A stretch of 64,000 bases of DNA from Bryum argenteum. Taxonomy: Eukaryota > Streptophyta > Bryopsida > Bryales > Bryaceae. Position 1 is the first letter of the stretch. Every line of letters begins with the position of its first letter. Below, one piece after another: positions 15,539-46,218 of this stretch. The translations under genes and the position numbers were made by a program. The stretch covers positions 20,922,758-20,986,757 of the forward strand of contig CM073323.1 in assembly GCA_037043015.1 (NCBI GenBank), given 5' to 3'. Under the pieces are notes generated by a model that was not told the DNA's origin, ran no database searches, and saw only the letters and a list, made by a program, of their open reading frames with translations.

Positions 15539-15792
15539 CTTAAACCCTAGAGATTTGTGATGCAAAATTGCTGAAATTACATACATCGACTTCCTTCTAC
15601 ATCACGCCTATTGGAACTCACTCTAAGCATTATTTGGAGGATCCAATAGTAGGATCTTCACATTTTCTTGACATTCCAAATTTGAACCGTTGATTCTTCT
15701 GTATTTGTGAGATCGTAACCGTCAAACTTGGCTCGAATTTTTTTGGAACTCTGATAAGCCATTTAAACTTTTTGTGAATTTTTAGGTATTAA
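15539..15792 (+). mobile_element. Degenerate TTAA element, partner of the element at 15789
   Basis: It begins TTAAACCCTAGAG and shares the interior of the next element in order ('accttcttctac', 'aactcaatctaagcatt', 'ggaagatccaatagtaggatctt', 'aaatttgaaccgtt', 'tgagatcgtaacggtcaaa'-like). It appears to abut the younger copy, sharing or overlapping the TTAA at 15789-15792. Confidence 0.6.
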
Positions 15793-16056
15793 CCCCTAAA
15801 GGTCCTTGATACAAAATTGTTTAGATTATCAAAAAGAACCTTCTTCTACTTCAGGTGCAAAAAAACTCAATCTAAGCATTGATTAGAAGATCCACCCGTA
15901 GGATCTTGAAGTTAACTTGACCCTTTTCTTGTATGTCAAATTTGAACCGTTAAACTTTCTCCAATTTTGAGATTATAATGGTCAAAGTTGGCTGTATTTT
16001 CTCCCTGCGGAAATTCCAAAAAGCGATTTCCGCTTTCTTGGACCTTTAGGGGTTAA
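15789..16056 (+). mobile_element. 268-bp piggyBac-type MITE (TTAA, CCCCTAAAGGTCC ends)
   Basis: The left end reads TTAACCCCTAAAGGTCC (15789 on) and the right end GGACCTTTAGGGGTTAA (ending 16056), a perfect 13-base inverted repeat inside TTAA on both sides. There is no coding capacity. TTAA target sites and CCC-starting termini are typical of the piggyBac superfamily; the superfamily assignment is an inference from the ends alone. Confidence 0.85.
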
Positions 16057-16376
16057 CCATGGATGTATCCTCCAATACAAGTAATATCCAAATACTTGTA
16101 ATTACTGGCATTGATAGATTTTGGTAAGTCATCACTCATATGGTAGAGTGCCCTAAAAGTGCGCACCTTGGACTTTAAAAAAAGTTGGATTACTCAAAAT
16201 GTCCTCGTTTTATTGAGCAAAAAGGTAAAAATAAAAAAATAAAAATAAAAAAAAAATTTATAAAAAAATTTAAAAAACAATAAAAAAATAGTGGTGAATG
16301 TTTTTTTAGCAAACACTTTCAACCGGTATTTTAAAATGCTATTTAGCTTAATTGTGAGAACTTCAAGTTTGATTAC
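16057..16376. other. AT-rich spacer
   Basis: It contains an A-rich tract at 16220-16295 and no recognisable gene. Confidence 0.5.
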
Positions 16377-17934
16377 TTAACCCCTAAACGCGCCGAATGT
16401 CGAAAAACGACATTTTGGATGGAAGGCAACAACTTTGAAGAGCCATAACTTTGAAGAGGTCCGTTTTGGATGAAATCACTTGGGCTAGGTTCCAAATCAA
16501 GTCTAGTTTGTGTTGTAGAATTTTCAAGCCCATACAATAAATTATGAATTAATGGAATGCACTTTAGTGAAGACAGCTCTTGTTTTTGGGATTCCAAGCA
16601 TGGGGCATGTATTACCATTGCAAGCCAATTATGTGAAATTAAAAATAGTTTTTTATGATTTTTTTTCATGGTCATGATCTTAAGGTGATTCTTAACAACT
16701 TTGTAGTGAGAAGTTTTTTTAACCAAATGATTTTGCTATTGGATCTGCAATGATGTTTTGTCAATATAAAAAGTGAGAAAATGGATGATGTTTGAGGAGC
16801 TATATCTCCTTCATCCACCGTTGGATTTCAATTTAATCTTTTGGGATGGCCTCCAATTAGAGTCTAGTCTAAGTGGTAGAAACCTTAACCCCTAAAGATC
16901 CAAGAGGACCAAATCGGGCTTTTGCTATTTTGGGCAGCCTAGATGAATAGGTTAAAAGTAATATTTTTGCCTAAAAAATTTAATGAGTGCTCCCTATACT
17001 GCAAAGTGTATGTGGTAAAATTTGCAAAGCCAAATTCCAATTTTTGAGTCTTCTACAACAATTCTTGGTTTGCGAGCCGAACTGGGGCAGTTTAAATTTA
17101 GTATTTTTTTGAGATTTTTTTTTGGAAATATGTTCATGACCAAATCACTACCTAAGTTCCAAAGGGCCCCAAGTCACTAAGAGTACCAATTCTACAAGGG
17201 CAGCCTCCAAAAGTGTCAAAAATAATTTCAACAATGTCCTAAAAAACTTCGTAGACAAACTTTGAATGTTATGATCTCTCAAATGGTAAACATCCAACGG
17301 TCAATTTTTTAATCAGATATTGAAAATTGGCTTAGATACAAGATCTTACGGTTGGAAGTTAAAAAAAAGAATAAAAAAATTGTTTCGCACCCCTTGAAGT
17401 GCATAGAGGTAGAGAATTGGAGTTTTGAGGTTTCAAGCTCCGAAAAACACCCAAGGATCTTTAGGGGTTAACAAGATCGAAGATGTTTTGAAGATAAGGC
17501 ATGAAATTGAATGCAAAGGGTCTAGTTTTGGACTATTTTTCCTTTGTAAAATTTTCAGCAGTTTTTACCATTGCATGGCTTTTATTTGAGCCAAGAATTT
17601 TTTTTGATGAATTTTTGTTGGGTAAAGGACTTATTAAGATGAAGGTGAACATCTTTCTAGTTGGTGATTTTTTCATTGCAGTAGGTATATTGGTAGCATC
17701 TCCACCTCAAAGTGAAAATGATGAAATTTTGCAGTTTGTTTTTTGTATCAATATGTTATGATCTCCCGATCTATAAGGCCTCACGACTCAAATTTTGGTC
17801 CACATAATCTTCGATAAGTCTATTACAAGTTTGTACGGTTGAGATCTTAATAGCTTCTCTTCATTTTCATATATGACGATTTCTATGGAAATGTGCTTTT
17901 ATGCTAAAAATAGGCTGGGACGTTTAGGGGTTAA
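16377..17934 (+). mobile_element. ~1 kb piggyBac-type element interrupted by a nested 587-bp element
   Basis: The ends are TTAACCCCTAAACG (16377 on) and CGTTTAGGGGTTAA (ending 17934). Just inside the left end is a hairpin around 'aatgtcgaaaaacgacatt'. Another TTAA element (16885-17471) is inserted in it, so the original length was about 975 bases. Related copies, all more decayed, are at 6640-7625 and 44230-45345, and parts occur in the 20.4-25.07 kb segments. No transposase is encoded. Frames of about 117 (-) and 86 (+) codons inside it are AT-rich and without a domain. Confidence 0.8.
16885..17471 (+). mobile_element. 587-bp piggyBac-type MITE, nested
   Basis: It is bounded by TTAA at 16885-16888 and 17468-17471, with terminal inverted repeats CCCCTAAAGATCC and GGATCTTTAGGGG. 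It is nearly identical, in inverted orientation, to 19599-20183. It sits inside the older element 16377-17934, which dates it as the younger insertion. Confidence 0.9.
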
Positions 17935-19598
17935 ATAGTCTAAAAGGATTCACATGTATATACCTTGTTGAAATTTTTGAAGTGTTCAAGGTGCTTGACT
18001 ATGAGTTTCCATGAGGATATACATCATACATCATGAACATTTGTAGCATGATTTATACTTTTGTGAGGATGAAGATCTATTTACATAACAATCATAACAC
18101 TCAAATAGTTCTATACAAGAATGCGAGATTTTGTTGAAAAATATTAATATATTGAAAAAAAAAATGTCTTTCTTGACAATTTTTGCTTTAAGACAGGATC
18201 TATATGGAGAGAAGATGAGGATAATTGGATAGCTATTAGTGCAAAAATTAGAAAAATAAGTTGTAAGCCTGCAGAGGATTGTAGTTTTTGACATTGTCGA
18301 ATCTATACGTTTTGTGTATGCTATCACTTATTTCGTGTTGGTTAGAATAATATTATTTAGGTGATTTGATAATCTTTTTTACTTATGAGGATATAAAACC
18401 CTTTTGTTTCCTTTTTGTTTCAGTAAGTCTAAGGAGTAAACTCTTTCACCTCTATGAATTTATCCCCTTTCTGAATTCACTCTTTCTAATGTTACCACAA
18501 AACAAGTCAGTTTTGCACCACATGCCCCCTCTTTTGTTCTTGTTATGATGCACTAGTACCATTGAATACTTTAGGAAATGGATTGAAATAAGTTGTAACA
18601 AGTGCTTGCCAACCCCTCGCCCTCTATTAGAAGTTGTTGTCAATCTTCACCCCCCTATGGTCTTATTGCCACAATCAAATGTTGAAATAAGTGAGTAATG
18701 ACCAACCACTTGCCTCCTTTATTGCCATGCAAAGTATCGTTGAACACTTTAAGAAACATGAGTAGATAAGCATTGACAAGAAATCGCCAATCCCTTTCCC
18801 CTCCCTCTTTTACAAGTAATTGTCAAATTTCGCCCTTCTTTATCGCTAGAAATCATCACCAAAATGGTTTCTATATTAAATTGTTACAACCACATTTAAA
18901 AACTGAACTCTAGAGGAAACATCAATAGATAAGCCTATGAAAGTGAGTGCCAACTATTACCCACCCATTGTTCAGACCACATACCACCAACAATGAACCA
19001 TTCATAAACCCCAAGAGGTAAGCTCAAAAAGTGATTGCACACCCTACCTTCAATCTATTGCCACAAATCAACACCAACTGGTTGTTTTTATTGCATAGTC
19101 ACAGTTATGTTTGTTAAAATAATTTAGGAAACTAAGTATTCTATAATACCTAGCAATAAGGCCAGTGAAGGGATACCAAGTCACCTTTATAACTAGTTGA
19201 ACAAAAAAAACTAATTTATAATATTCTTCAAATTAAGTGAAGTTATAAAAACCACCCAAAAGGATAACTTACACTACAAGACCAATGACATAGTCTCTTC
19301 ATATGTAGGAGTGAAAGCCAAGAGTACAAGAAGATATCAAAGGTCCTTAGTGTATTGTAGTGGTGAGCCAATTTGCCACAAAATGCATTAAGAGCTATTA
19401 CTCCCTCAATAAAGTAAGTAATGGGATATTTGTACACCAACATTCTCAAGACTTAAGTTACATACATCATTTCCTTTCAACCGAATATATTCAAGTTCTC
19501 CAAGATCATATTAGTAATTAACGTATCAATTCCTTAACATAAACATACAATTATTGCTTGTAGGATTCAAGTTAAAACACTTTCTTACAATCACATTG
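17935..19598. repeat. Diverged first copy of the ~2.1-2.5 kb segment
   Basis: The order of phrases matches the two segments that follow at 20430-22540 and 22541-25070: 'attgaaaaatattaatatattgaaaa', 'tttgtttcagt', 'agtaaactctttcacctc', 'gtcagttttgcaccac', 'tagtaccattgaatactttaggaaatgg', 'gttgccatgcaaagtat' and 'aggtaagctcaaaaagtg'. It is more diverged than those two are from each other. No gene is visible. Confidence 0.65.
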
Positions 19599-20183
19599 TT
19601 AACCCCTAAAGATCCTTGGGTGTTTTTGGGAGCTTAAAACCTCAAAACTCCAATTCTCTACCTCTATGCACTTCAAGGGGTGCGAAACAATTTTTTTATT
19701 CTTTTCTTAACTTCCAACCGTAAGATCTTGTACCTAAGCCAATTTTCAGTATCTGATATAAAAATTGACCGTTGGATGTTTACCATTTGAGAGATTATAA
19801 CATCCAAAGTTTGTCTACGAAGTTTTTTTGGGCATTGTTGAGATTAATTTTGACACTTTTGGAGGCTGCCCTTGTAAAATTGGTACACTTTTTGACTTGG
19901 GGCCCTTTGGAACTTAAGTAGTGATTTGGTCATGAACATATTTCCAAAAAAAAATCTCAAAAAATACTAAATTTAAACTGCCCCAGTTCGGCTCGCAAAC
20001 CAAGAATTGTTGTAGAAGACTCAAAAATTGGAATTTGGCTTTGTAAATTTTACCACATACACTTTGCAGTATAGGGAGCACCCATTAAAAAATTTAGGCA
20101 AAAATATTACTTTTAACCTATTCATCTAAGCTGCCCAAAATAGCAAAAGCCCGATTTGGTCCTCTTGGATCTTTAGGGGTTAA
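19599..20183 (-). mobile_element. 585-bp piggyBac-type MITE, intact ends
   Basis: The left end is TTAACCCCTAAAGATCC (19599 on) and the right end GGATCTTTAGGGGTTAA (ending 20183). It is in inverted orientation relative to 16885-17471 and differs from it at only a few positions over the stretches compared, which suggests recent movement. There is no coding capacity. Confidence 0.9.
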
Positions 20184-20429
20184 AAAAAAATTTCAACAAT
20201 GATCGCCACTACATCAACAAAGAGAAACTTTGAAGTTTCAAAGGTTATTACACTATTTACAATAAGATCAACCTCGTTAGGATCAACGTCTAATTAAAAA
20301 CGCTATCCCTGTCCCTTTATTATGCAAAGAGGCATTGTTTTGTTATGGTCAACGCTTGGATAAGATCTACGTTTTTGTCTGTCCGAAAACGTTTATCTAA
20401 TCCAAACACCACTGTATATCAATGAAAAA

Positions 20430-22540
20430 ATAACTTACCCAACTAACCAAAAATGAACAGTCTAATTGCCATTAATCTTTTGGAGTTACCAGCTCCATTT
20501 GTGATTGTAAAAGTAGAATTCCAGCTCTCTCAGGCAATCAGGAATGTGAGGCAATTTTCACCATTAAAAGGCTATTATTTGGGTCAAAATAATAATAATA
20601 ATAATAATTTTTATTTTTTTATTTTTTTATTTTTTAAAATTTTTATTTTTATTTTTGTTGGTAAAATTTTGATTACAATTGGTTTCTTGGTAGTATGTCG
20701 ACTTCAAAGTGAAAATGTTGAGATTTCATAATTGTTTCTGAGTACAAATATACTACAATCTTGCAATCTATAAAGCCTCATGACTCCAAATTTGACCCAC
20801 ATGACCTACACTAAGTGTACTACAAGATTGTATGATTAGGATCTGAATAACTCATTTTCATCTATGCTTATGCAGCTTTGAGAATGAAGATCAATTAACA
20901 TAATAGTCATAACTCTCACATAATTGAATACAAGAATGATTGGACTTTCATGAATGTCAGGTTTTATTGAAAAATATTAATATATTAAAAAAAATCTTTC
21001 TTGACAATTTACGCCTTGAGAATAGTCAAACAAAGAAAAGGAGATGAGGATAATCAAACAACTTTTAGTGCAAAAATTAGACAAGCAAGTTATATAATTA
21101 TAAGCAGGCCTCTACAAAGTTGTGGATTTTGATATTGTAGAAATCTATAAGTTTTTTTGTGTGTCACTCGTTATACTTCTTGGTTAGGATAATATTATGC
21201 ATGTCATTTTGGTATTCTACATTATTTATGAAAATATGGATTTCTTTTTTTCATTTCTGTTTGTTTCAATTGCTATGAGGAGTAAACTCTTTGAAAAAAT
21301 TTATCTCTATTCCCGTTATGAATTGACTCTTTCAAATAGTACCATAAAACAAGTCAGTTTGCCAACCACCTACCTCCACTTTTGTTCTTGATATCATGCA
21401 CTCGTACAATTCAACACTTTAAGAAATGGATGGAAATAAGTTTGACAAGTGCTTGTCAACCCCTTGTCCCTTATTAGAAGTTGTTGTCAATCGTCGCCCC
21501 CCAATGGTCTTGTTGCTAGAAACAATGTTGAAATAGCAAAGTGATTACCAACCACCTGCTTCCCTTGTTGCCATGCAGAGTATCAAAACACTTTAGGAAA
21601 CACGAGGAGATAAGTATTGACAAATACATCTCAATCCTCGCCCCCCCTCTATTACAAGTGATTGTCAATCCCTTGTAGCCCCCTACTACAAGTAATTGTT
21701 CAAATTCTTATCTCCTTTGTAATTGTCTCCACAGACCATCACCAATTGGCTTTCTTCTTGAGTTGTTGCCAACAGGTTTGAAAAGTAGATTCCTCGAGAA
21801 ATAGCAAGAAGTGCATTATTGAAGTAATTCCCAATAATTCACCTCCCTTCCATTGTTGTGACTACACACCAACAAGTATAAATCATTCAAAAATACCAAG
21901 AGGTAAATTTAGAAAGTGGTTCTTTTTATTGCACCGTCACAACTACGTTAGTTGACATAAGTGAGAAAATTGAGTACTACATAGTACCTACCAGTGATGA
22001 TGGTGAAAAAATAAGTTAGTAACGAGGTGAAGTTGAAAAACTCCTTTTCCATTCTACATATTATGAAAGGAAGCCACTTAAAAGAATCACTTACAATAAG
22101 GAAACAACAATCTTCTCTGTAATGGTACAAAGAAGAAAAAAACAATACTCAACTCACTTTGTAAAATCCAAGAGTTCAAAATGGTTAACAAATGTATTGA
22201 AGGTCATTGTAAATAGTTGTGAGCTAATTCTAAGTAGTTTTAATGGCAATGAGACACTCAATATCTAGTGATCTCCCTATAGAATAAGCGATGCAATCAT
22301 TCTACCTTCAATTGGTTTCAGACCGATGTTTTCAATAAACATTGCACACTTCATTTGATGTTTACTTACCATATTCAACTTCTCCAAACTTATTCTTGTA
22401 GTAATCATATTTATTTTTGAACCTATAAATAATACTAAATAATACTTATACTATTTCACTTACATTTAAACCGCCCCCTACTTTGAAGCAAAACTAATCA
22501 CAATCCTTTCTTACCAAGTATGAAATGATATCAATCATAA
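20430..22540. repeat. ~2.1 kb tandem segment, copy 1
   Basis: It starts with 'acttacccaactaaccaaa' and ends before the same phrase at about 22550. It includes a stretch related to the right half of the element at 16377-17934 and the 'gccaaccacctgcc ... agataagtattgaca' repeats. An AAT microsatellite and T-rich tract lie at 20590-20660. No gene was recognised. Confidence 0.7.
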
Positions 22541-24681
22541 GGTAACTTTGCCCAACTAACCAAATAAAAAATTAAAATCAATAAAAATTAAAATTAAAAC
22601 TAAATAAAGAAATAAAAATTGTTTAGTTGTCATTGATCTTTTGAAGTTAACAGCTCAATATGTGATTGTAAAAAGTAGAATTTTAACCAAAGTTCCTCGT
22701 TTGACATATATAATACTATTTTTTTTTTATTCTAGTGTATGAACTCTTTAGATACCTAAGCTGTTTCGAATAACAAAAATTGATTCTTTTAACAAGATTT
22801 TTTTTTTTTTTTTTTTCAAATTAGTGTAAAAACAAAGAAGAATAAAATTGGTGAAGATTTTCTCGCATATTTTAGGATACCATTTAGCTCTATTATGAGA
22901 GCTTGAAGTTGATCACCTAAAGTAGTTTCAAAAAGCATTCACATTTATATACCTTGTTAAAAAATTTAAGAAATCAAGGTCCTTGATTTTGAGTTGCCCA
23001 TGAGGATATACATTATGATAATTTTATGAACATTTGTGACATGATTCATGTTCTACATTAACCACTAAGTGTTCTTTGGTCTAAAAGTTGGACCTTGGAA
23101 ATGCATGGTCTTTAAGGAGTTATATCCGTCGTTGGATTTCAATTTTATTTTTTGGGTTGGAATCGAATTTGAAAGTGAACAACTTTCTTGTTGGTGAAAC
23201 TTTGATTTCAATTGGTTTCTTGGTAGTATTTCCACTTCAAAGTGAAAATGTTGAGATTTCGGAATTGTTTTTGAGTACATATCACAATCTTGCAATCTAT
23301 ACGGTTTCAAGACTTCAAATTTGACCTGCACTAAGTGTACCACAAGATTTTTTGATTGGGATCTGAATGACTTCCTTTCCGTTATGTTTATGCAGCTTTG
23401 AGAATGAAGATCAATCAACATAATAGTCATAACTCTCACATAATTGAATACAAGAATGATGTTGGACTTTCAAGAATGTGAGGCTTCATTGAAAAATATT
23501 AATATATTAAAAAAATGTCTTTCTTGACAACTTACGCCTTGAGAATAGACCTCTGTGGGGAAAGAGAATGAGATGAGGATAATCAAACAACTTTTAGTGC
23601 AAAAATTAGAAAAAGCAAGTTAAATAATTATAAGCCTCTACAAGGTTGCCGATTTTGATATTATGGAAACCTATACGTTTTTTTTTGTGTGTCACTCATT
23701 TTACTTATTGGTTAGGATAATATTATATATGTCATTTTGATATTCTTTATTATTTATGAAAATATGGATTTGTTTTTGTAATTTCTGTTTGTTTGTTTCA
23801 GTTGCTATTAGGAGTAACCTCTTTGAAATTTTTTTATCTCTATTCCATTTATGAATTGACCCTTTCAAATAGTACCATAAGACAAGTCAGTTTGCCAACC
23901 ACCTGCCCCCACTTTTGTTCTTGTTATCATACACTAGTACCATTCAACACTTTAGGAAATGGATGGAAATAAGTTTGACAAGTGCTTGCCAACCCCTTGT
24001 CCCTCATTACAAATTGTTGTCAATCCTCGCCCCCCTATGGTCTTATTGCCACAAACAATGTTGAAATAACTAAGTGGTTACCAACCACCTGATTCTTTTG
24101 TTGCCATGCAAAGTATCAAAACACTTTAAGAAACATGAGGAGATAAGTATTGACAAATACATCCCAATCCCTCGCCCCCCTCCCTCCTCCTCTATTACAA
24201 GTAATTGTCAATCTCGTGTGCCCCCCTACTACAAGTAATTGTCAAAAATTTGTCTCCTCTGTACTTGTCTCCACATATCATCACCAACTTGCTTTCTTCT
24301 TGAGTTGTTGCAAGCATGTTCAAAAAGTGGATTCCTCGAGAAATACCAAGAGGTACGTTAATTAAAGTGATTCCCAATAATTCACCTCCTTTACATTGTT
24401 GTGACTACATACCAACAAGTATCAATCATTTAAAGATACCAAGAGGTAAGTTCAAAAAGTGGTTCTTTTTATTGCACCGTCACAACTAGATTAGTTGACA
24501 TAAGGGAGAAAATTGAGTACTACATAGTACCTACCAGCGATAATGGTGAAGAAATAAGGAGCCACCCTAGGAACCAGGTGAAGTTGAAAAATTTCTATTC
24601 CACTCTACAACTTTATAAAAGAAAGTCACTTAAAATAATGACTCACAAAAAAGAAACAACGGTCTTCTCTTTAGTGGTATC

Positions 24682-24723
<42 letters not shown>

Positions 24724-25070
24724 ACTTTGTAAAAGCCAAGAGTTCAAAATATATCAAAGGTCCTTGCAAATAGTTGTAAGCTAATTCTAAGTAGTTGTAA
24801 TGGCACTGAGACACTCAAAGATCTAGCGATCTCCCAATAGAATAAGCGATGCAATCATTCTACCTTGAGCTCTTATCACACCAATGTTTTCAATAAACAC
24901 CTTCATTTGATGTTTACTAACCATATTCAACTTTTCCAAACTTATTCTTGTAATAATCATAATTATTTAAATGCATAAATACCACTAAATAATACTTCTA
25001 CAATAATTTAGCAACTTGCATTAAACCGCCACTACTTAGAACCAACTCATCACAACTCCAAAAAAGGGGA
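22541..25070. repeat. ~2.5 kb tandem segment, copy 2
   Basis: It is a direct repeat of 20430-22540, with a roughly 400-base length excess in its first third (22700-23110). By eye it is close to 90 percent identical over the later part (23220-25060 against 20700-22540). It contains T-tracts (22799-22817) and a poly-A run of about 40 bases (24680-24720). A 124-codon minus-strand frame at 23065-23439 is AT-rich and not preserved in copy 1, so I do not call it a gene. Confidence 0.75.
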
Positions 25071-25078
25071 CATGAGCC

Positions 25079-25448
25079 TTAACCCTTAAACGCCCTTGGG
25101 GTCTAAAACGGGCAGCCCGAAATTGGATCACAACATCCTTTGGACTTGGGCATCATGAATAGTGCACTTTTTGAACTTGGGCATCATGAATGGACCAATC
25201 AATGATGAGCTTGCAACCTCCTACAAGGTTATGTACCACCCCAACCTACCTACCACAATCCTTTCAAACCACAAAATCATTCATACAAATTGTGATTTGA
25301 ATTGTGAAAATTCACTTTTTGAATGCATCACAAGAAGGTGACCAGTTTGACATCAAAATATAAGTGAAACGTTGAGTACAATGAGAGCTACAGGGAAGAT
25401 TCTGTTGGAATCAAGCCCCTCGGGCTTGCTCGGGCGTTTAAGGGTTAA
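25079..25448 (+). mobile_element. 370-bp piggyBac-type MITE, copy 1
   Basis: The ends are TTAACCCTTAAACGCCC (25079 on) and GGGCGTTTAAGGGTTAA (ending 25448). The subterminal sequence is GC-rich (CTTGGGG / CCCCTCGGGCTTGC) and the interior AT-rich. Two other copies in the window (40869-41238 in inverse, 45842-46211 in direct orientation) have exactly the same length. Confidence 0.9.
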
Positions 25449-25767: not shown

Positions 25768-26010
25768 TTAACCCTTAAACGTCATATGCTGTCCTGATAC
25801 CCCACCCAAAATCTCTTTCAAAACTCCACTTTTAGCATTATTCTATTTTTAATTTGCGTGAGCTCTATTCTAAGAAAGTATAGATCTCTTTAAGGTGCTC
25901 AGTTTGGAATTTTAAAAATTCCATTTGGTATAATGGAGTGTAAGTTATGAGCAAGATTCTCTCAAAAAAAAACCCAACCCCTGGGGCTGGGTCTGACGTT
26001 TAAGGGTTAA
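25768..26010 (+). mobile_element. 243-bp piggyBac-type MITE
   Basis: The ends are TTAACCCTTAAACGTCA (25768 on) and TGACGTTTAAGGGTTAA (ending 26010), a perfect 13-base inverted repeat plus TTAA. The interior is unlike the 370-bp family, although the termini share the core CCCTTAAACG. Confidence 0.9.
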
Positions 26011-26121
26011 CGTGCTTCGCTTTTGAACATCGGGAAGTTACAAACAGTTGTCACATGTGAATTCGAATGGTTTTTCGAAGTTAACATTGAGGGACCTCCG
26101 TGTTGGGCCAAGTTGCATCTA

Positions 26122-26235
26122 TTTTTGAACGAGTGCATACTCGACACCACATGGCGCACTTTTTGAACGAGTGCATACTCGACACCACATGGCGCACTTT
26201 TTGAACGAGTGCATACTCGACACCACATGGCGCAC
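26122..26235. repeat. 38-bp direct repeat, three perfect copies
   Basis: The unit starts TTTTTGAACGAGTGCATACT and is present at 26122-26159, 26160-26197 and 26198-26235 without visible differences. It lies about 500 bases upstream of the acetoacetate-decarboxylase-like gene. The minus-strand frames through it are products of the repeat. Confidence 0.95.
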
Positions 26236-26750: not shown

Positions 26751-27881
26751 ATGACTTCGTGCATCAGAGTAGCAGCAACTCGCATATTGTCGTCTCCGAA
26801 ATTCATTCCTGCTTCTCGACTTCCCCGAAGCGCGACTTCTGTAGTATGCTTTAGTAGTATTCGAGCTCGTAGTACGAGTGTTGAGCCGGACATGGGTGTG
26901 GCTTCCAGTAAGAGCAGCAATGGTGCGAGCCATGGTGTGAGCAATGGTGCGAGCCATGGTGTGAGTAATGGTGCGGCAAGCAGCAGACCACCGAGTGATA
27001 GCAAAAGAGACGTTTCGGAAGGGAGAGCGACAGCGCCATGGATATTGCACGGTCGCGGTCTCGTATTCCCCTGCATGCTGCCCAAAGAGACTGCCATGCA
27101 GTACTCCGCTTACGCTGAGGATCCGAACGAGCTCGTGAAGTTCGTGGGCGGAATCGGAGCTGCTTTCATTCTTGTGAATTACACTGACAGTCCTGTGGGG
27201 CCGTACAAGGAATTAGTGTTCGTCCCGGGCATGTACCAGTACTTTGATACTGTAGCTGGAAAGGTAAAGACGGCGCACGGCATTTCCCGAATCTGGGTCG
27301 ATAACCAGGTACGCCAGCACCGACACTAAACCCTCAACCCCATGCACGGCCATAAGGTCCCTGACCCCATGCTACAGGCTCAAATGGAAAAAGCATGGAG
27401 TCTGACCCTGCTATTTTGTGTGCAGAAAAGTGTTACCGATGCGCGTGCGAACTGGGGCATACCGAAGGAGCTGGCGGAGTTCGAATGGAAGGAACCGTCA
27501 TCGGGCGAACCAGGGAGAGTTACGGTGCGTCACTGCAGCAATGGTAGCAGGGGAGGTGTAATCTTCGACGTTACTTTCCACGACAACTACTCGCCCGTTT
27601 CGTTTCCTGTCTTTACCAAAGTGCCGTTGCTTCCCAACTTCGATGTCTTGAATTGGCTCCCGCTGGTGCAGCTTGGCGATGGCAGCCACGACCAGCTGTT
27701 GTTGACAACACTGTCCGCGCGGGGGTGGATGAAGCCTGCCGCCATGGCCGATAAGCCGCGCGTGGACTCTGCCCTCTTACCCTCCGTGGAGGCCTTGTAT
27801 GGCCTTTGCATTTCTTCGTTTGAGCTTCAGTTCAAAGAACCTGTCGAGCTCCGAAGCGAGATTCCTGCTTCTGTTCGTTAA
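26751..27881 (+). CDS. Acetoacetate-decarboxylase-like protein, putative plastid form
   Basis: Two exons, 26751-27308 and 27426-27881 (donor GTACGC, acceptor TGCAG, phase 0), give 337 residues. Residues 1 to about 48 are Ser/Arg-rich with few acids, like a plastid or mitochondrial transit peptide. A Ser/Gly/Asn linker (about 50-85) includes tandem copies of NGASHGVS, encoded by a 24-base repeat at 26916-26963. The rest resembles the acetoacetate decarboxylase fold family: FILVNYTDSPVGPYKELVFV, then WGIPKELAEFEW, whose lysine (about residue 200) lies where that family has its Schiff-base lysine. The true substrate of the plant proteins is not known to me, so the enzymatic name is only a family label. 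The start is the first ATG in the frame; a second at 26892 would omit the leader. The TAA stop lies inside the TTAA of a transposon (27878-28623). Confidence 0.8.
26916..26985 (+). repeat. 24-bp coding tandem repeat in the N-terminal linker
   Basis: Unit AGCAATGGTGCGAGCCATGG plus TGTG occurs at 26916-26939 and 26940-26963, then a partial third copy. It encodes the SNGASHGV repeats between the transit peptide and the catalytic-type domain, and because it is a multiple of three, copy-number change would keep frame. Confidence 0.9.
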
Positions 27882-28623
27882 CCCTAGAACGTCGGAGCCC
27901 ATAACCGTGGCCTGAACTTTGATATGTCTTACTCTGAATCCTCCATTTCGCCACTTTACCTGAAAGTAAAATATTTTATTTTATTTTTCGTAGATGTGAT
28001 CACATGCTTTTCATATGCTGTAAAAATTTCAGATTTTTTTGGGAAGATTTGAAATTCAAGTGAATTTTCAAAGAAAAACCAAAAATAATTCATATCAAAT
28101 ACAAATCACTTTCAAAAAATCTGAAATTTTTGGAATAAGGGGACATTGTAGTGAAGAATAGCATGGTGTAATCCATGGTTTCGTGTCATGCTATATTTGA
28201 AAATTGAGAAAGAGACCCTATAGGCATGTAAACTTAAGGTGTCAGTAAATCACTAGATATTAGGAATTTCTTGAAATTCTAACTTGGAGTAGAAACAAGA
28301 CTTGGTAAGATTCATTTTATGAATTGAGCTTGAACTCAAAAGAGATCATTTAGTTGCCTAAATTTGAGACTTAATAAAAGTAGGAAAAAGTTGCAGAAAT
28401 GCACTGTGTGGTGACTTGTTTTTAACCATTCTTTCAACTTTCATACCACATGTGATCTTAGGAAATACCTTAAATGACCTCAAATGAATTCCATGATATG
28501 CTATTATCATTCATAAATCCAATTACAAAAATCATGAATGAAATTCATCCCGCAATAATAGGTTACAGTGAAAATGTTCTGTTCATCGGACATAAAATGG
28601 CCGCTCCGACGTTCCAGGGTTAA
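27878..28623 (+). mobile_element. 746-bp piggyBac-type element inserted at a host stop codon
   Basis: The left end is TTAACCCTAGAACGTCGGAG (27878 on) and the right end CTCCGACGTTCCAGGGTTAA (ending 28623); inverted repeats of about 16 bases differ at one position. TTAA flanks both sides. Its last three bases on the left, TAA, are the stop codon of the upstream gene, so the 3' UTR of that gene must start inside the element. An internal near-palindrome around 28080-28130 ('ccaaaaataattcatatc', 'atctgaaatttttgg') is also present. A related 28-base stretch occurs at 306 and 14206 in the 1.4 kb blocks. Confidence 0.9.
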
Positions 28624-38137: not shown

Positions 38138-39391
38138 AGCTACCACCACAACGAGCTCAACACCGGTACTCTGCTGTGCTGTGCTCTGCTCTGCTCGGGC
38201 TTGCCCTGTTCGTCCTTTGACCTTGGGCCACGCTCGCGCGCTATGGCGTGCAGCTCCCTACTAAGCTTCAGGGTTTGCTCAGCAGTCACGTCTGCTCTAC
38301 TCTAGAGTGTTCTAAAATGGAATGGACGGAGAAGCGCCGTTCCTCGTCACCGCTCCGTCGTCGTCGTCGTCGGCCGGCTAATAGTGTTTCCGCGATTGCT
38401 GGAACTGTTTGTACGTCCAAATGGGGCCTATTGCGGCCGATCGAAGTCTCCGTGAATTGAGGCAAGGGTCGGGTTAGTAGGTACTTTGCCGGGTCGGTGT
38501 CGTTGCCTCGTCAGACAGGGTCCTCTTGCCGCATCGACAGTTTCAACACCTCACTTTCAGACTTCGAATACAGTCTTTCAGATCTTGAAGAAATTTGGGA
38601 CTTCGATATTTCATATCTCTGTGGAGTGTGGGGCTTCGACATCCAGGAAATTGGGGGCTTCCATATATTTTGGACTCCGAAGTCTGGGGACTTAGAGGGA
38701 TCGGGACTTCGAGGCAATGGGTCTTCAAGGCACCTGGACTTCGAGGATTGAGGACTTGGAGGCGTCGAGGACTTCGAGAACGGGACGCTTCTCAAGAGAC
38801 TCGGAGGCATCATCAAAATATGTGAGAATTAGAAGAGAAACTCCAACTTATTTAAAGGTCGGCGTGAAGTAAGTGTCCGTTTGACCTAACCTTGAATGAA
38901 TGCCCAGAGGTCATCACACCAATAGCGGAATAAGTGTGTGAGACTTTTTGTATTCAAAACTAAGAGGAGTTAGAATTGATATATTTGAGACTTTCAGAGT
39001 GTTACTAAAGATTTTGTTAAGTGTAGGTACGTTGTATGATTAAGATTTTCTATAACGTTTTACTTGTGATAGAACTTTGTATTGATCAAATAATAAATAA
39101 GAACACCAGACCCTCGTGGGGATGGCGTGAATAAAATGTTCGTTCAACCTACCCTTGACATAACAACAATTACATAGGACTACTCACCCCTCTCAGAGTG
39201 GATATTACAACCACAAGTAGTAACTAGTAACCATTAAATCAGTAACAAAATATTTTGTTATATAAATTATAGTCTGTTTGTTGATTTAACTCACATTGGT
39301 AGAGATGGAGGTTGTTGATCCAGTTGGTCGTCACATTGTTCACATTGTCTGCTTGTTTGCTAAAGATATAGCTGCATTGTAACAGTGGTAC
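38138..39391. other. 5' flank of the LUH-type gene and GACTTCGAG-rich tract
   Basis: The GC-richer part up to about 38460 is probably 5' UTR and promoter of the LUH-type gene; no core motif stands out. At 38560-38800 the phrase 'gacttcgag' or 'ggcttcgac' recurs at irregular spacing of 20-40 bases, a degenerate repeat that opens frames on both strands without recognisable protein. Confidence 0.5.
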
Positions 39392-39550
39392 GTGTTCAAA
39401 TCGCTACGGGCTCATTTGAGCATCGTTTTGTTTCACACATGGCAGTGTTCAAATCGCTACGGGCTCATTTGAGCATCGTTTTGTTTCACACATGGCAGTG
39501 TTCAAATCGCTACGGGCTCATTTGAGCATAGTTTTGTTTCACACATGGCA
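39392..39550. repeat. 53-bp direct repeat, three copies
   Basis: Units at 39392-39444, 39445-39497 and 39498-39550 start GTGTTCAAATCGCTACGGGC and are almost identical (one C/A difference in the third). Each starts with GTTCAAATC, similar to a tRNA B box, and an A-box-like ACTCACATTGGTAGAG lies at about 39289-39304. The spacing is too long for a tRNA gene. Confidence 0.95.
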
Positions 39551-40868
39551 GTGCTACATGTTAAGCTAGACTTAATTTATGTCAACCTAGGCCCACGTAC
39601 CCCAAGTGTGACAAGGTTACTTTCTCTATAAACAAAGGTGGTTCGATGATCACTATTTTATACATTTTTGTCTTTATTGGGGTTGTGCATCTAGTGGTAC
39701 AAAGACTTTGTTTTCTTATTTCTAGATGGAATGTATGTGGATGCTTTAGCTCATGTTGTAATAACTATTAATGGCTCTACCATCCAAGCTTTATTTTTAA
39801 TATCATCAATGAGAGGTTGATATTTTTCTACTTTTCTATTTATACTTTCTAGTGAAATATGTTGTTACAATACTATATGTGTAATCTATAAATTTTAAAA
39901 TTAGGTTATTATTATGAGTTATGGGAGAATTTGATTGATATGAATGTCCCTTAATACATAATAAGTTTGGTTTAAGGTTTGCATTGCAATGGCATTTACC
40001 TCTGTATTGATCAAACAACTACTTATAGTACTTGAAAGGAGGCAAACACAATTAGTATATTCTTTAATCAAAGGTAAAAAGTTATAGCAATTATATGTCA
40101 AATAATGCAGACAACACTAAATATAAATATGAGTGTAAGTGTAGTCTTTCTAATTCAAAGGTTGATTTTTTTCTATAAGAACTTCGTAGAGGTTGATACA
40201 AGGGAACACTTGATTGCAAGTCAGATGTCATCAATTGAATAATTAACAAGGCATATACAGTAAATAATGTATCGTTCAAAGCTCAAATATCTGAGCAACA
40301 GTGTCCTATATTTCATTAACAAATTCTTAATTTCTGAAATTTTTAGATTCAACGATGGTTGTTTCTCTTCAGAATTTGCTTTTAAATATCCAAGATAATT
40401 TTCTTGATTATAAAATTAGTGCAAACTGATGCTTACACCTTTGAATTGTTCCAATTTAGTGAGGGAGAGTGTTCAAAACTCAAGCGATACCAATAATGAA
40501 GCACTAGGTTTCTTGAGTCATAGGTACATAATACCTTTCTCACTCAAGAGTAGCATGTACCCATAGAAAACATTATTAAGTGCAAAATTAGGACACCATT
40601 TTAAAAATACCTATGAGACTGCCTTTAAAAGTTCATCGCAAATTGTAGAAGAGTCTAAAAAACATGAATCCACTATGACTGTCATTCCACTTACTTTCCC
40701 ATGCATGAAATTACTTCCCTTATTATCTTCACGACAGACTCGAAAATCTAAAATTTGAGCCATATTTGAAGACTCTCCCTTAAGTCCGTGCATTTGAGAA
40801 AAAATGCATGTTGTCAGAAAACTTGTATGCAATTTGAAAAACTTTCAAGCATGTACGTCACCTTTCAT
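39551..40868. other. AT-rich intergenic DNA
   Basis: No gene or element end recognised. Confidence 0.45.
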
Positions 40869-41238
40869 TTAACCCTTTAAAGGCGTCTGTCAGCCCCTTG
40901 GGCTGTTTTCCAACACTATCTTGCATGTAGCGCTTTTGATTCTCAAATTTTCACTTATTTTTTTATATCATTCGGGTCACCTTTTTGTGATGCATCTACA
41001 AAGTGAAATCCTACAATTCAAATCGCAATTTGTATGAGTGATTTGTGCTTTGAAAGGATTGTGGTAGGTAGGTTGGGATTGCACAAAACCTTGTAGGAGG
41101 TTGCAAACTCATCATTGATTGGTTCATTCATGCTGCCCAAGTTCAAAAAGTGCACTATTCATGTTGCCCAAGTCCAAAAGATGTTGAGATCTAATTTCGG
41201 GCTGCCTATTAAGGAGTGGAAGGACCTTTAAGGGTTAA
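40869..41238 (-). mobile_element. 370-bp piggyBac-type MITE, copy 2 (inverse)
   Basis: It is bounded by TTAA (40869-40872, 41235-41238) with left end CCCTTTAAAGGCG and right end CCTTTAAGGG; the termini are more diverged than those of the other copies. The interior is the reverse of 25079-25448, for example 'ttgtaggaggttgcaaactc' and 'gatctaatttcgggctgcc'. It has the same 370-base length. Confidence 0.85.
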
Positions 41239-42215
41239 GCCTCTCCAATCTAAGGTAGAAGCCACACAATAGGAAAGGCATTGAGTTGGATGAATTGTAT
41301 TGGTTCAAATGAGCAAGTAGTTGCTACATGAGAGGAAGTATGGGGAGTAGCAACAATGACATAGAACAACTTCTTACTTTGGCTTTTGCTTCGGATCTAC
41401 ATGATAATAAAGCAATGTGCACAATAAATGTATTCCAAAACTACCTAGCACTAGTGGGGCGCCCGTAAACTAGTGCTACTAGCATTTCTCGGACCCCAGT
41501 AGCCAATGGGATTTTTTCTTTAGAATCCCTCAAATGTTTGGCTTGGACCCCCTGATGAGTGTTTTTAATAATTTTGAATTCAAAAATGGAGCTTGTTGCC
41601 CCAAATTACTCTTCAAGCCTACTCCTTGGCATTTTAATCTTATACATAAAAAATTTAGGGCTCTTTACCCCTCCCCTCCCTTGCCCCGAGAAATGCTCGT
41701 AGCACTGATTTACAGTGATCCGCACTACAATGTAAGGAGGAAAACAAGGAACATGAAGGCAATGTGCCATGTTGGAGGAAGTTGTGAAACTTCCTCCCCT
41801 CTCGTTTGGGCCTAAAATTCACTGCATCGATCTCTAAAGCGATGACATGCCATGTCTACCATGTGTGCTGTCGCTCTTTTAGTGTTTCCAGCACACAATG
41901 GTGGGATATTTTCAACTACGAAAAGACTGGCAGTAGTACCACCAATGTCCTCCTTCACTACGGCATCGAAACTGGATTCGTCATCAACGGATCTAATCGA
42001 AGAAAGAGTAATATCATTTAAAAATATAGCACATACTGCCAATTTCATTATCTTATAGTTCGAATCATCATTCACCGGCACAATCAAAAAGGCCGATCAG
42101 CTCACTTGTATACCTCCACAGCTCACTTGTATACCTCAAATTTGATCTTTTCAGAACTGAATGTGCATTTGGTTTTGAGAAATTTCTACTGTAAAATTTC
42201 ACTTTGAAAGTGACT
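41239..42215. other. Intergenic DNA
   Basis: Frames of 70-93 codons on both strands at 41530-42090 overlap each other and have no recognisable domain. I do not call a gene. Confidence 0.45.
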
Positions 42216-42297
42216 TTAACCCTTTATCGCCGGAAAAACCCTGATACAGTCGAACATTCACACGCCTATCATAGACCCTGTCGGTGGTAAAGGGTAA
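42216..42297. mobile_element. 82-bp minimal TTAA-type element
   Basis: The left end reads TTAACCCTTTATCGCCGG and the right CGGTGGTAAAGGGTAA, an imperfect inverted repeat with the same CCC-type core as the longer elements. The right TTAA has lost one T. Only about 45 bases lie between the repeats. It could be a minimal derivative or chance. Confidence 0.5.
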
Positions 42298-44229
42298 TTT
42301 AGTCTACTTTCCAAGCTTGAGAAATATTCACTCAAAGCTCCAACTTCTGTAATAACAACGTTTGTGTTGTGAGTCAAAATGACCTGAATTGAAATTTCAA
42401 TTTTAGGGTTTGAGAGCAAGTAGTTGAATCGCAATCATTTCAAGAATGAGAAGAATCGTTGCATTCAAAAGTTTCAAAGGGAAGAACTCATTTCAGTATC
42501 ATCGCTATTTTCAGTAGTAAATGGCAGATCCCGTGGGCTTGATGAATGGGGAGCGGGGGCAGACAGGGACTGATGAAGCCTAGCGTTTCATTCGGTGACA
42601 GTTGGTACGTTCCTGGTAAAGTTGCCTGAACCAGAATCGACGCCTTGTTTCTGGTTTTCTCGGTTCACGACCCAACCACATGTGGACAAGGTCGCATGTT
42701 GATTTTGGGTAAAGTTATTCTCATCTGAATTGCCACAAGATAGATTTGTGAAAGACGTTATCTTCGTAGAAACCCTTCAACTTCCAGGTAACCTCGAATG
42801 GAAGTGCTTTCAAAGTAAACCTCTAAGTAGGGTCCTACCATAGGGTGACTTGCTCATCAAGATTATTTTAGATTTTAACTCATCAAAGTTTTTGGTTTGT
42901 AATTTGAAATGATTTGTAAAAATATCATATGGAGTGTACAAGGGTTGATGATTCTTGGGACTTGTGTGTATATATATATCGAATTTTTACTTCTTACCAG
43001 TTGTGAGATTGTAGTGTTAAAAGTTGGAGAAAAAGTTTTTTTTTTAAATTTTTAGATGTTGTAAAAAGGGTAACTAGTTCTTAAGGGCAAAGATACCATT
43101 TTTTTAGTAGTAGAAAATTTTTATATGAGGCTCTTCACATTCTTGTTCCTAGGGAGTTAGAAACATGACTATGCAATTTTTACCCTCATGCGACCTTTAA
43201 AACCTAAAGAAATGCTTGATTGTTTACATGGAGGTATGGTGGGTTCAAGTACAAAGGTCAATCTTTGACAATAAAAATGGCACATGAAGAGAAATTGGAT
43301 TGGTCATCCAAACGGTGACACCATGCCTTAGTACCTCTTCTACATGCTCAAACAAAGTAACTTGAAAAAACAAAAAATAATCTAAATTTTTGGTGATTCT
43401 CTAAAGTTTTTATGATTTAAGTAATGTTGGGCATATTTATAAAATAAATGAGCATGTACCTGAGTTATGCAGGTTTGGGTAGATTTCAAAATAGTGTTTT
43501 CAAACTTTGACCGTGAATATCTTCTTATAAAACTATGAGGAATTGTGAAGCTGGAAAGGACTTTTGGAAAGGTTTGGCAAAACTTTCAACACGCAAAAGG
43601 TCTCAATTGTATGGAGCTAAATATAGAAACTAGAAGTTGGCCAAACCCTAGTTGACCATGATATGGCCTCAGTCAACTTTCGAGGTCAAACAAGGATAAT
43701 TTCCTTATGAGAGAACATTCTTGTAAATATTTTCATATCAAGGACGAATTCCAAAAATTTGCAAAGAGAAAAACAAAAATAAATAAACATTTCATTTTCC
43801 CATCATTGGTGAACATATCGCAGCTAATATAAAGAAGATTGGCATCTTAGCGTATTCAAGCTACTATGCATATTATTCTTCTTGCTTCTGAAACATTAGA
43901 GGAACGTTTTTCCTTCATCTCATTGCACGTATTTTTCCTACATGAGAATATTTTCAAAAATGTTCCCTCATATGAAAATTTTCCTTCAAACAAAGCGTCT
44001 ATGCACATTTGAAGATCAAGAAAAGCCCATGTTTTCAATTGTGATTTATCAATCCTTTCAAAATTGATAAAAATGCGTATAAAGAGAATATGAAGATATT
44101 ATAATATAGAGGACATATAGATATTCAAATCTCCCCATGAGAGTTTTTAATTAACCTAGTAACCATTTTCTAGAACCAAACAATCGAAATCTATTTCCGT
44201 CAATATTTTTTGAATGACTTTAGATGTAG
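42298..44229. other. Intergenic DNA
   Basis: No gene recognised. A GC-richer patch at 42500-42800 has no sustained frame. Confidence 0.45.
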
Positions 44230-45345
44230 TTAACCTCTAAATGTCCATGGGGTATTTTTAGCCAAAAACTCATTCTTAAAAAAATTGCCATAGATGGAAA
44301 TGAAGACAAGCTACATAGATTTCAACCGTATAAACTTGTAATAGACTTGTTGTAAATCATGTGAAGTGAAAATTGACTCATGAGACCTCATATATTGGGA
44401 GATTGTACCGTATTAGTGCGCAAGATATATTACAAAATGCCATCATTTTTACTATGAAAATACTACAAACTTGAAAATTGCAAAAAAAAAAATCACCAAC
44501 TAAAAAGATGTTCCTCTTCATCTCAAAGACTCTATCATACCAAAAAAGTAATTCAAAGAAATATCTTGGCTCAAATAGTAGCCTTACAATGGTGAAAATT
44601 GCTATACATTTTACGAAGAAGAAATAGTTGAAAACTACACCCCTTGCACTCAAATCCATGCATTGTCTTAAGATGGTTATCAACAACTTTCTAACTAGAT
44701 GCTTTTTGATCCGAATAAGTTTAGTATTGGATTTGCCATGATGTTTCTTCAATGAAATCAATGAAAAAATGAATGAAGTTTGAGGATCTATATTTCCTCC
44801 ATCCACTGTTAGATTTTAACTTTTTAATTTGGAATGGATTCCAATTAGAGTCTAGTTTTAGTGGTAGAAATCTTGACCAAATCGAAGATTCGAAAATCTT
44901 GACCAAATAAAAGAGGCTTGGGTTTAAGTGGAATAGTTGTAGTTTTGGACCACTTTTCTTTTGTAATTTTTTGACAGTTTTCACCATTGCAAGGCTCCTA
45001 TAGGAGTCAATGAATATCTTTGGTACAAGTTTGTTGTTTGGATGGAGGCAAACAACTTCCTCGTTGGTGACTTTTTAATTGCAATTCGTTGATTAGTAGA
45101 TTTTCCACTCAAATGTGAAAATGATGACATTTTATTGTTTTTTTTAAATTTTAAATACTAATATGTTACAATCTCCCGATCTATGAGGGTTTCATGGCTT
45201 AACATTTGGACCACGCGATCTACTATTAGTCTACTATAAGTTTGTACAGTTAAGATTTAAATACATAACCTTCATTTTCATTTACGACACTTTTTTTGAA
45301 AATGTATATTTTGGCTAAAAAATAGGCATGAACGTTCAGGGCTAG
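44230..45345. mobile_element. ~1.1 kb foldback element of the TTAA family
   Basis: The left end is TTAACCTCTAAATGTCCATG; the right end (AACGTTCAGGGCTAGG) has decayed from CGTTTAGGGGTTAA. The two outer ~300-base arms are diverged reverse complements of each other (left 'agccaaaaactcatt', right 'ggctaaaaaataggc'; both continue to 'gggagattgta', 'atgtcatcattttcac' and 'caccaac'). Both arms match the right half of the element at 16377-17934. Frames on the minus strand (142 and 88 codons) lie across the arms and show no domain. Confidence 0.7.
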
Positions 45346-45496
45346 GCACATATGGAGTATATACACTAATATTTGAGAGACAAACTTTGTCATAAATCTA
45401 AAAAGTAGTGTAGCTTAAAAGTCCTTCTTTTGATTTTGTAAAAGATAATATTTTCAACCTAATAGCATTCTCAAAGCCCATGAAAAGAATGTGTCA

Positions 45497-46218
45497 TTCA
45501 ACCCTACGGATTTGGGCAGCCCAATATTGGATCACAACATCTTTTGGACGTGGGCATCATGAACAGTGCACTTTTTGAACTTGGGCATATCGAATGATCC
45601 AATCAATGATGAGCTTGCAACCTCCTACGAGGTTATGTACAACCCCAACCTACCTACCACAATCCTTTCAAAGCACAAAATCACTCATACAAATTGTGAT
45701 TTGAATTCTAAAATTTCACTTTTTGAATGCATTAGAAGAAGGTGACCAGTTTGACATCAAATTATAAGTGAAAAGTTGAGTACATTGAGAGCTACTGAGG
45801 AGATTCTGTTGGAATATGACCCCTCGGGTCACCTCAGGCGTTTAACCCTTAAACGCCCTTGGGGTCTGAAATGGGCAGCCCAAAATTGGATCACAGCATC
45901 TTCTGGACTTGGGCATCATGAATAGTGCACTTTTTGAACTTGGGCATTGTGAATGAACCAATCAATGATGAGCTTGCAACCTCCTACAAGGTTATGTACC
46001 ACCCCAACCTACCTACCATAATCCTTTCAAAGCACAAAATCACTCATACAAATTGTGATTTGAATTGTCAAATCTCACTTTTTCAATACATCAGAAGAAG
46101 GTGACCAGTTTGACATCAAAATATAAGTGAAAAGTTGAGTACAGTGAAAGCTACAGGGAAGATTCTGTTGGAATCAAGCCCCTCGGGCTTGCTTGGGCGT
46201 TTAAGGGTTAAGGGTTAA
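45497..46218 (+). mobile_element. 370-bp-family MITE interrupted by another copy of itself
   Basis: It starts TTCAACCCTACGG (decayed TTAA). Its interior matches 25079-25448 up to CAGGCGTTTAA at 45845, where another element begins. Its last bases, GGGTTAA, are found after that insert, ending at 46218. Without the insert it would be about 356 bases. Confidence 0.85.
45842..46211 (+). mobile_element. 370-bp piggyBac-type MITE, copy 3, nested in its own family
   Basis: The ends are TTAACCCTTAAACGCCC and GGGCGTTTAAGGGTTAA, very close to 25079-25448 and of identical length. It has landed in the TTAA that lies inside the terminal repeat (CGTTTAAGGG) of the older copy 45497-46218, duplicating TTAA. 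Confidence 0.9.

Follow-up and report, generated by a model that had tools for sequence, protein, structure and literature searches.

Non-autonomous piggyBac-type transposons in a moss genome and the larger transposase elements that share their ends

A 64,000-nt stretch of plant DNA (hereafter the window) carries a series of short elements flanked by TTAA and opening with CCC, which raises the question of what these elements are and which transposase could have moved them. The exact end sequence TTAACCCYTARA occurs 16 times in the window, against an average of 0.07, and never more than one, in 100 dinucleotide shuffles; 30 first-order Markov sequences gave the same mean of 0.07. A search for paired ends recovered nine elements with TTAA and CCC on both sides, and three further elements retain one good end, the other having decayed (Table 1). 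The resulting total of twelve therefore bears out the preliminary description, which had proposed at least ten such elements, a few of them decayed on one side. Terminal inverted repeats that open with CCC beside TTAA are characteristic of the piggyBac superfamily, and we consider the identification of the window elements as MITEs, non-autonomous members of that superfamily in a plant nuclear genome, almost certain; larger transposase elements elsewhere in the genome presumably serve them.

Table 1. Elements with piggyBac-type ends in the window. Limits marked ~ (three one-ended elements) are approximate and were read by eye; L numbers denote loci elsewhere in the genome.
Element	Length (bp)	Position	Strand	Ends and relationships
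MITE	268	15789..16056	-	Paired ends; right end agrees with L014/L019/L022/L028 5′ ends at 25–27 of 30 bases
Older MITE	1558	16377..17934	.	Paired ends; ~975 bp without the nested 16885–17471
MITE	587	16885..17471	+	Paired ends; nested inside 16377–17934
MITE	585	19599..20183	-	587-bp family, opposite orientation; 561/587 aligned columns identical
MITE	370	25079..25448	-	Ends match L009/L010 3′ and 5′ ends, 22 bases each
MITE	243	25768..26010	.	Paired ends
MITE	746	27878..28623	-	Partner is the 8392-bp element C3:13764234-13772625
MITE	370	40869..41238	.	Related to 25079 family (307/372 columns), reversed
Probable small decayed element		42216..~42303	.	Left end TTAACCCTTTATC retained
Old copy of 16377–17934 family		44230..~45343	.	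Left TTAA retained, right end decayed
Older 370-bp-family copy		~45500..46218	-	Split by 45842–46211
MITE	370	45842..46211	-	Ends match L009/L010 over 22 and 17 bases

The element at 16377–17934 has a further copy in locus L018, 91–96% identical and without the nested insert, and the same locus holds a paralogous empty site for 16885–17471, with a single TTAA and 122/124 identical positions. The insertion point of 45842–46211 is an internal TTAA in the terminal repeat of the older copy at ~45500–46218. Removal of the insert with retention of one TTAA restores that repeat, and the flanks, once joined again, can be aligned with the 25079 copy through its final base (90.6% over 341 bp). Position 46218, given in the preliminary description, is the end of this older, split copy of the 370-bp family. 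A single TTAA was present at every empty site checked, namely two paralogous empty sites and the one nested case; that is, the TTAA target is duplicated on insertion and single when empty. Exact restoration of TTAA had been proposed as a check on the piggyBac assignment, and it was seen each time, at paralogous sites within the genome rather than in a related strain.

The same ends are abundant across the genome. The motif TTAACCCYTAAA occurs 23,184 times, against 401 for its reversed control, and 3298 of 3694 CCCTTAAACGCCC cores are immediately preceded by TTAA. Elements of 359–384 bp with the exact 17-bp ends of the 25079–25448 type number 757 genome-wide, against 0 in the control. For individual MITEs the best candidates alone were scored, which biases the sample towards full-length copies. 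Within this sample all 40 copies of the 746-bp MITE (best 40 of 266 candidates) are full-length, and 21 of them, the window's own included, are also identical, with different flanks among the four that were read. Whole-length copies make up 37/42 of those scored for the 587-bp MITE (4816 first-look candidates, about 40 scored), and the whole element is spanned in 37/40 and 39/40 scored copies of the 243-bp and 268-bp MITEs, respectively. Three of the 40 scored rows for the 243-bp MITE (best 40 of 504 candidates) are identical over positions 1–243, its own place counted, and the rest are 98–100% identical; other genome copies of the 268-bp MITE are 96–97% identical (best 40 of 2043 candidates scored). 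The 40869–41238 element has a full-length copy in L018 at 93.5%. The two-ended members of 243–746 bp are short and non-coding, have terminal inverted repeats and belong to sets of many homogeneous copies, as expected of MITEs.

Larger same-ended elements that encode a DDE_Tnp_1_7 (piggyBac) transposase, for which the preliminary description had suggested a search, are present in the same genome. At least 116 piggyBac transposase matches were scored (of 775 candidates), all above the Pfam cut-off; 93 of the 116 are free of internal stops and 23 contain them. Matching ends stand on both sides of the transposase in 15 of 20 fetched loci, spanning 4.5–8.4 kb (14 directly, the fifteenth once more flank was included), and in the other five (L013, L015, L023, L026 and L027) at least one end has decayed or was not found. 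Both ends have 14–20 of their first 20 bases in common, TTAA included, in 14 transposase elements. An alignment check placed the catalytic DDD in 19 of the 20 loci, L015 having DED, with Glu in the second catalytic column. The transposase core aligns with that of T. ni piggyBac (6x67; phmmer E=9e-32), and the L016, L017 and L019 proteins end, as judged by eye, in a C-terminal Cys/His cluster, a candidate for the cysteine-rich zinc-binding domain of piggyBac transposases. A DDE_Tnp_1_7 (PF13843) transposase with DDD is thus found inside elements with the same ends, as membership of the piggyBac superfamily entails. Clustered at 60% amino-acid identity, the 20 fetched domains fall into 6 groups, and a threshold of 80% separates 10; the window itself has no match to them or to 12 upstream-domain sequences at E≤0.01, in line with the earlier suggestion of several families mobilised by related transposases outside the window. 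Seven transposase copies on five contigs show 0–2 differences per 1149 bases.

Particular MITEs can be paired with particular transposase elements. The 8392-bp transposase element has 42/42 and 31/34 terminal bases in common with the 746-bp MITE, and identical terminal runs of 17–22 bases connect MITEs with L009/L010 and L014/L022; the left end of 16885–17471, for instance, equals the L014/L022 5′ end over 21 bases and its right end their 3′ end over 17. In comparisons with 28 partner ends, the longest identical terminal stretches displayed for the MITEs at 15789, 16377, 25768 and 40869 reach 9–14 bases, so that no specific partner could be assigned to them. For a second transposase of the L011 family (C6:8670397), matching ends were absent from two small stretches where they were expected. 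No piggyBac transposase match was obtained from 14 control genomes, a weak control in which the one named genome is a cyanobacterium, and when IMG/VR was scanned for viral carriers using transposase alignment A1, tblastn confirmed none of the 58 pattern matches.

A second conserved domain, without a Pfam family, lies upstream of the transposase; its one Pfam match (E=0.1) came from one of 12 members. A relationship to TRP channels was considered and rejected, the best solved-structure profile match reaching only E=0.011, which we took as chance. Among 150 rows for this domain, 58 are equal in score, span and frame length and free of stops. ORF1 runs into AG/GT in all eight loci compared (GTRA in seven, L025 excepted), and the ORF2 start is preceded by AG in seven of the eight (GG in L026). 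The ORF1–ORF2 junction looks like an intron, although the phases of the two frames do not connect across AG/GT...AG in these eight loci.

TTAA by itself is not exclusive to piggyBac, as Sola3 is also a TTAA-targeting superfamily, and the elements might on that ground be assigned to another superfamily of this kind. We regard this as very improbable, given that DDE_Tnp_1_7 is what the matching ends enclose in those 15 of 20 loci, albeit loci chosen by that transposase, and that no other transposase, Sola included, rose above the Pfam cut-off in eight ORFs from six loci. Even less credence is due to the idea that the shared ends derive from telomere-like CCCTAAA repeats or from chance A+T-rich palindromes. 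The core TTAACCCCTAAA does include CCCTAAA, the plant telomere unit, but many ends read CCCTTAAACG, which is non-telomeric. Neither origin fits whole elements that recur with both ends, the presence of empty sites, or full-length 746-bp copies sitting in unrelated flanks, and the shuffles and reversed-pattern controls, which fall far below the observed counts, argue further against chance.

A more serious alternative is that the elements are relics of a piggyBac population that was formerly active and is now dead. Many scored copies of the 587-bp and 268-bp MITEs are 95–97% identical rather than identical, several ends in the window have decayed, and about a fifth of the scored transposase matches carry stops, all of which would suit such relics. 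The identical 746-bp copies in different flanks, the seven barely diverged transposase copies and the 58 uniform, stop-free upstream-domain rows point the other way, and on balance we think extinction unlikely. The near-identical copies suggest that jumping has apparently been very recent.

If the window elements are MITEs served by larger elements, the piggyBac transposase encoded there, with its DDE_Tnp_1_7 core, DDD triad and C-terminal Cys/His cluster, would act in trans on MITEs that retain the terminal bases of the transposase's own element, as we infer from the shared ends. The chemistry of excision and insertion would be that of animal piggyBac: by this analogy, a MITE would be excised at its flanking TTAA and inserted at another TTAA, a single TTAA staying behind. 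Several related transposase families would probably each serve their own MITEs. It is possible, though in our estimation somewhat short of probable, that this moss has a currently jumping piggyBac, in which MITE bursts are powered by several transposase families of large two-part build, the upstream part serving as a dedicated accessory that might bind DNA or direct targeting. Such a system, if real, would be the first native active land-plant piggyBac with both partners known, as far as the literature searched extends.

For inserting and excising genes seamlessly in animals, piggyBac is one of the main tools. A native plant lineage of it that seems to have been active very recently, and for which at least 116 transposase matches, ~23,000 end motifs and specific MITE–partner pairs are at hand, would open to test the life of piggyBac in plants, its origin and the feasibility of building plant-adapted seamless transposons. 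The land-plant host proposed at the outset fits, and the light-harvesting proteins suggest a moss: Lhcb9 is known only from mosses, and the best-matching structures are presumably those of Physcomitrium. The statement that piggyBac, familiar chiefly in animals, is poorly documented in land plants was fair but not absolute, as PiggyBac figures among the angiosperm MITE superfamilies (PMC10004981) and plants have been named as hosts of piggyBac-like elements (PMC8086355). By word count, piggyBac is absent from a review of land-plant transposable elements (PMC9033089). Bryophyte surveys of transposable elements may overlook the superfamily; no report of native piggyBac in bryophytes was found in the literature searched, which covered few subscription journals.

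Among known systems, T. ni piggyBac (IFP2; 6x67) has the TTAA target and CCC-starting ends of the moss elements, and shares with them a DDE_Tnp_1_7-type core; it also has a cysteine-rich C-terminal domain, to which the moss Cys/His cluster may correspond. Unlike that element, given as 2472 bp in PMC10803768, the moss transposase elements measure 4.5–8.4 kb and have a long N-terminal part and the upstream conserved domain. The moss Cys/His spacing also looks, by eye, unlike the CxxC-CxxC-CxxH-CxxC pattern given in PMC8086355. A further relative of the transposase (E=1e-31) is piggyBat of Myotis lucifugus (9c0f), whose host is an animal rather than a plant. PiggyBat has been recently active and is accompanied by MITEs; we know of no upstream conserved domain in it. 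Its terminal repeats are short and simple, as here (PMC8086355). PiggyBac is also listed as one of seven angiosperm MITE superfamilies, which, like the moss elements, are small, non-coding and grouped by their interior and their ends (TIR/TSD) (PMC10004981). For the moss, in distinction from these angiosperm MITEs, same-ended transposase-coding partners and empty sites have been demonstrated. The rice Ping/mPing system combines few transposase copies with many identical MITEs and has a two-ORF autonomous element; the moss system resembles it in copy pattern and two-ORF layout, but Ping/mPing belongs to a different superfamily, PIF/Harbinger, and uses a different target site.

The small non-autonomous elements of the window had been read, in the preliminary description, as piggyBac-type MITEs, and as a whole that finding is real and its reading correct. 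The end motif TTAACCCYTARA occurs exactly 16 times in the window, against 0.07 expected. Pairing of ends gave nine elements with TTAA and CCC on both sides, all within 15789-46218, and decayed ends read individually gave three further elements there with one end decayed, which bears out the earlier count of at least ten, a few of them decayed on one side. The elements at 16885-17471 and 19599-20183 are oppositely oriented members of one family, sharing 561 of 587 aligned columns, and those at 25079-25448 and 45842-46211 are identical at 348 of 370 positions.

The comparison of empty sites that the preliminary description had proposed was run on paralogous sites. The insert at 16885-17471 lies inside another element, 16377-17934; at the genomic locus L018 a copy of this outer element is uninterrupted, with a single TTAA at the insertion point, the window flanks (60 bases each) plus one TTAA matching the L018 site at 122 of 124 positions. 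For a 370-bp copy at locus L029, a paralogous empty site lies at locus L015 (107 of 123 matching), and here, as in L018, exactly one TTAA is present. In the window, the terminal repeat TTAACCCTTAAACG of an older copy of the 370-bp family contains two TTAA, and 45842-46211 is inserted at the second; removing it while keeping one TTAA re-forms the end of the older copy, which then aligns with the 25079 copy at 90.6% over 341 bp, reaching the last base of the latter. These single-TTAA sites, at L018, L015 and the older copy, are those expected of piggyBac. This repeat (for example at window 45842 and 46218) includes a second TTAA that was used for nested insertion, and a double end resembling it lies at positions 516/523 of locus L009. 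The 746-bp MITE occupies the TTAA forming the stop codon (CGT TAA) of a 179-codon open reading frame (window 27342-28623), and joining its flanks gives an identical stop, so that the end of the protein is unaltered.

Across the 258.8-Mb assembly (25 contigs, the window being part of contig C3), TTAACCCYTAAA occurs 23,184 times against 401 for its reversed control, 3298 of 3694 CCCTTAAACGCCC cores directly follow TTAA, and 757 elements of 359-384 bp carry the exact 17-base ends of the 370-bp-family type. First-look candidates numbered 4816, 504, 2043 and 266 for the 587-, 243-, 268- and 746-bp elements, and the whole element was spanned in 37 of 42, 37 of 40, 39 of 40 and 40 of 40, respectively, of the best rows scored; these fractions are no census, because the best candidates alone were scored.

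The suggestion that the mobilising transposase lies outside the window stands, as neither 20 transposase domains nor 12 upstream-domain sequences (see below) found a match there at E<=0.01. Searching the genome with the piggyBac transposase profile PF13843 (DDE_Tnp_1_7) gave 775 candidates, the best 116 of which were scored, every one above the cut-off and 93 (by row count) without an internal stop. Twenty loci were fetched, 18 top-scoring and two lower-scoring; three of these domains contain a stop, in a sample biased to intact copies because top-scoring loci were chosen. Both ends were located by eye, from the motif list, in 14 loci (elements of 4469-6570 bp) and, with a longer flank, in L011 (8392 bp). 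Larger members with both ends, as anticipated earlier, were thus recovered at 15 of the 20 loci; in L013, L015, L023, L026 and L027 one or both ends are decayed or were not found. The two ends of 25079-25448 equal the 3′ and 5′ ends of L009/L010 over 22 bases each, those of 16885-17471 match L014/L022 over 21 and 17 bases, and 27878-28623 (746 bp) shares 42 of 42 terminal bases with the L011 element on one side and 31 of 34 on the opposite side. For the elements at 15789, 16377, 25768 and 40869 no particular partner is named, because their longest terminal runs against partner ends are 9-14 bases. Apart from its own locus, the L011 transposase domain is matched over its full length at DNA level by one further copy in the genome, 97% identical; the stretches inspected around this second copy hold no such ends. 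Insertions in two piggyBac copies (L021 2788-3872, against L027, and L014 6546-6763, against L022; transposase orientation) have inverted, CACTA-like ends with a 3-base overlap, and by these features look like CACTA elements.

Over its core, L016 can be aligned both with piggyBat (9c0f, E=1e-31) and with the transposase of T. ni (6x67, E=9e-32). Its catalytic positions D860, D938 and D1050, invariant across the nine proteins of the transposase alignment A1, coincide with matching T. ni motifs in the 6x67 alignment, which we take to be the T. ni catalytic residues. Asp occupies all three columns in 19 of the 20 fetched loci, L015 having Glu at the second, and the L016, L017 and L019 proteins carry a Cys/His cluster at the C-terminus. 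At 40% identity the 20 core domains fall into a single group, at 60% into six and at 80% into ten; the least similar pair shares 35%. A tblastn search with the L019 query located a related domain, some 70-110 residues long, 5′ of the transposase in 17 of the 20 loci (L019 itself counted); L013 and L023 gave no match to that single query, and the domain in L011 was detected with queries other than the L019 stretch. Genome-wide, the best 150 of 322 candidates for it were scored. The domain lies 5′ on the same strand, within 6 kb (median 1365 bp), of at least 44 of the 116 scored transposases, a lower bound since both sets comprise the best candidates; among the matches listed it lies downstream of one of the 116 and on the opposite strand of none. 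It is taken as part of the piggyBac element. No credible relative was found in Pfam or among solved structures. In L016 and L017 coordinate arithmetic puts it and the transposase in different reading frames. Splice-like sites are present but join out of frame; the domain may be an upstream exon or a separate accessory protein.

Full self score was reached by 21 of the 40 best-scored 746-bp copies, the window copy counted, and the flanks of four copies compared share no more than a few bases. Within the L028 family, seven transposase copies spread over five contigs show 0-2 differences in 1149 bases. From such likeness between copies we infer that piggyBac elements may be active at the present day. 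In the 587-, 243- and 268-bp families most scored copies share 95-99% identity with the copy in the window, and because these coexist with identical 746-bp copies the MITE population is layered in age. Identical score, span and frame length recur in 58 of the best 150 upstream-domain matches (322 candidates), those of the L028 family, possibly reflecting a burst of near-identical copies.

Other features of the window
Feature	Position	Strand	Remark
Open frame, 777 aa	56440-58773	-	Apolipoprotein-like match, 49 bits (below cut-off); weak LEA_4 match
Piece of DHQS (3-dehydroquinate synthase II) gene	53647-54069	-	116 bits
DUF4283-like frame	62984-63751	-	Match slightly below cut-off
38-bp unit TTTTTGAACGAGTGCATACTCGACACCACATGGCGCAC, three tandem copies	26122-26235

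The 777-aa frame, with no match among solved structures, is perhaps an LEA-type gene. An LHCII sequence matched 9vfj, a multi-domain LHC chain, best (431 bits), then 7xqp (359) and 8htu (358), with other plant chains at 355 bits and less; with other plants scoring nearly equal, these matches alone would say little on relationship. An Lhca2-like sequence matched 7ksq, 8htu, 6l35 and 7xqp, presumably Physcomitrium patens entries, at 336-339 bits, the next plants reaching 310 or less. One light-harvesting sequence scored 313-314 bits with chain 9 of 7xqp and 8htu, which we take to be the moss-specific Lhcb9, against 202-279 for 9vfj chains and at most 182 for the remaining chains in the same search. 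These light-harvesting matches suggest that the host is a moss. Light-harvesting-family matches form large clusters at C5:8.16-8.41, 14.73-14.76 and 16.2-16.36 Mb, C2:25.06-25.09 Mb and C6:9.32-9.37 Mb, many weak members of which may be ELIPs.

A search of mainly open-access literature outside Repbase, with some long lists covered from the top, found no paper on native piggyBac in bryophytes. The repeat table of C-Fern lists 1230 PiggyBac entries (122 kb; PMC6890710) and a feather-grass table one entry of 75 bp (PMC8319324), PiggyBac is included among angiosperm MITE superfamilies (PMC10004981), piggyBac-like elements are reported from plants (PMC8086355), and a trial of animal piggyBac in P. 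patens is described as still outstanding (PMC5505980). For the Pohlia nutans genome, DNA transposons are put at 23.68% of the assembly, and the word piggyBac is absent from the available part of that text (PMC9247546). The piggyBac superfamily itself is already known. Within the literature searched, what is apparently new is the scale and apparent freshness of piggyBac in a bryophyte, together with MITEs assigned to named partners, the large size of the elements and an upstream domain without known relative. Few L011-type transposase copies beside many identical 746-bp MITEs recall Ping/mPing, in which the ratio of transposase copies to MITEs is similar.
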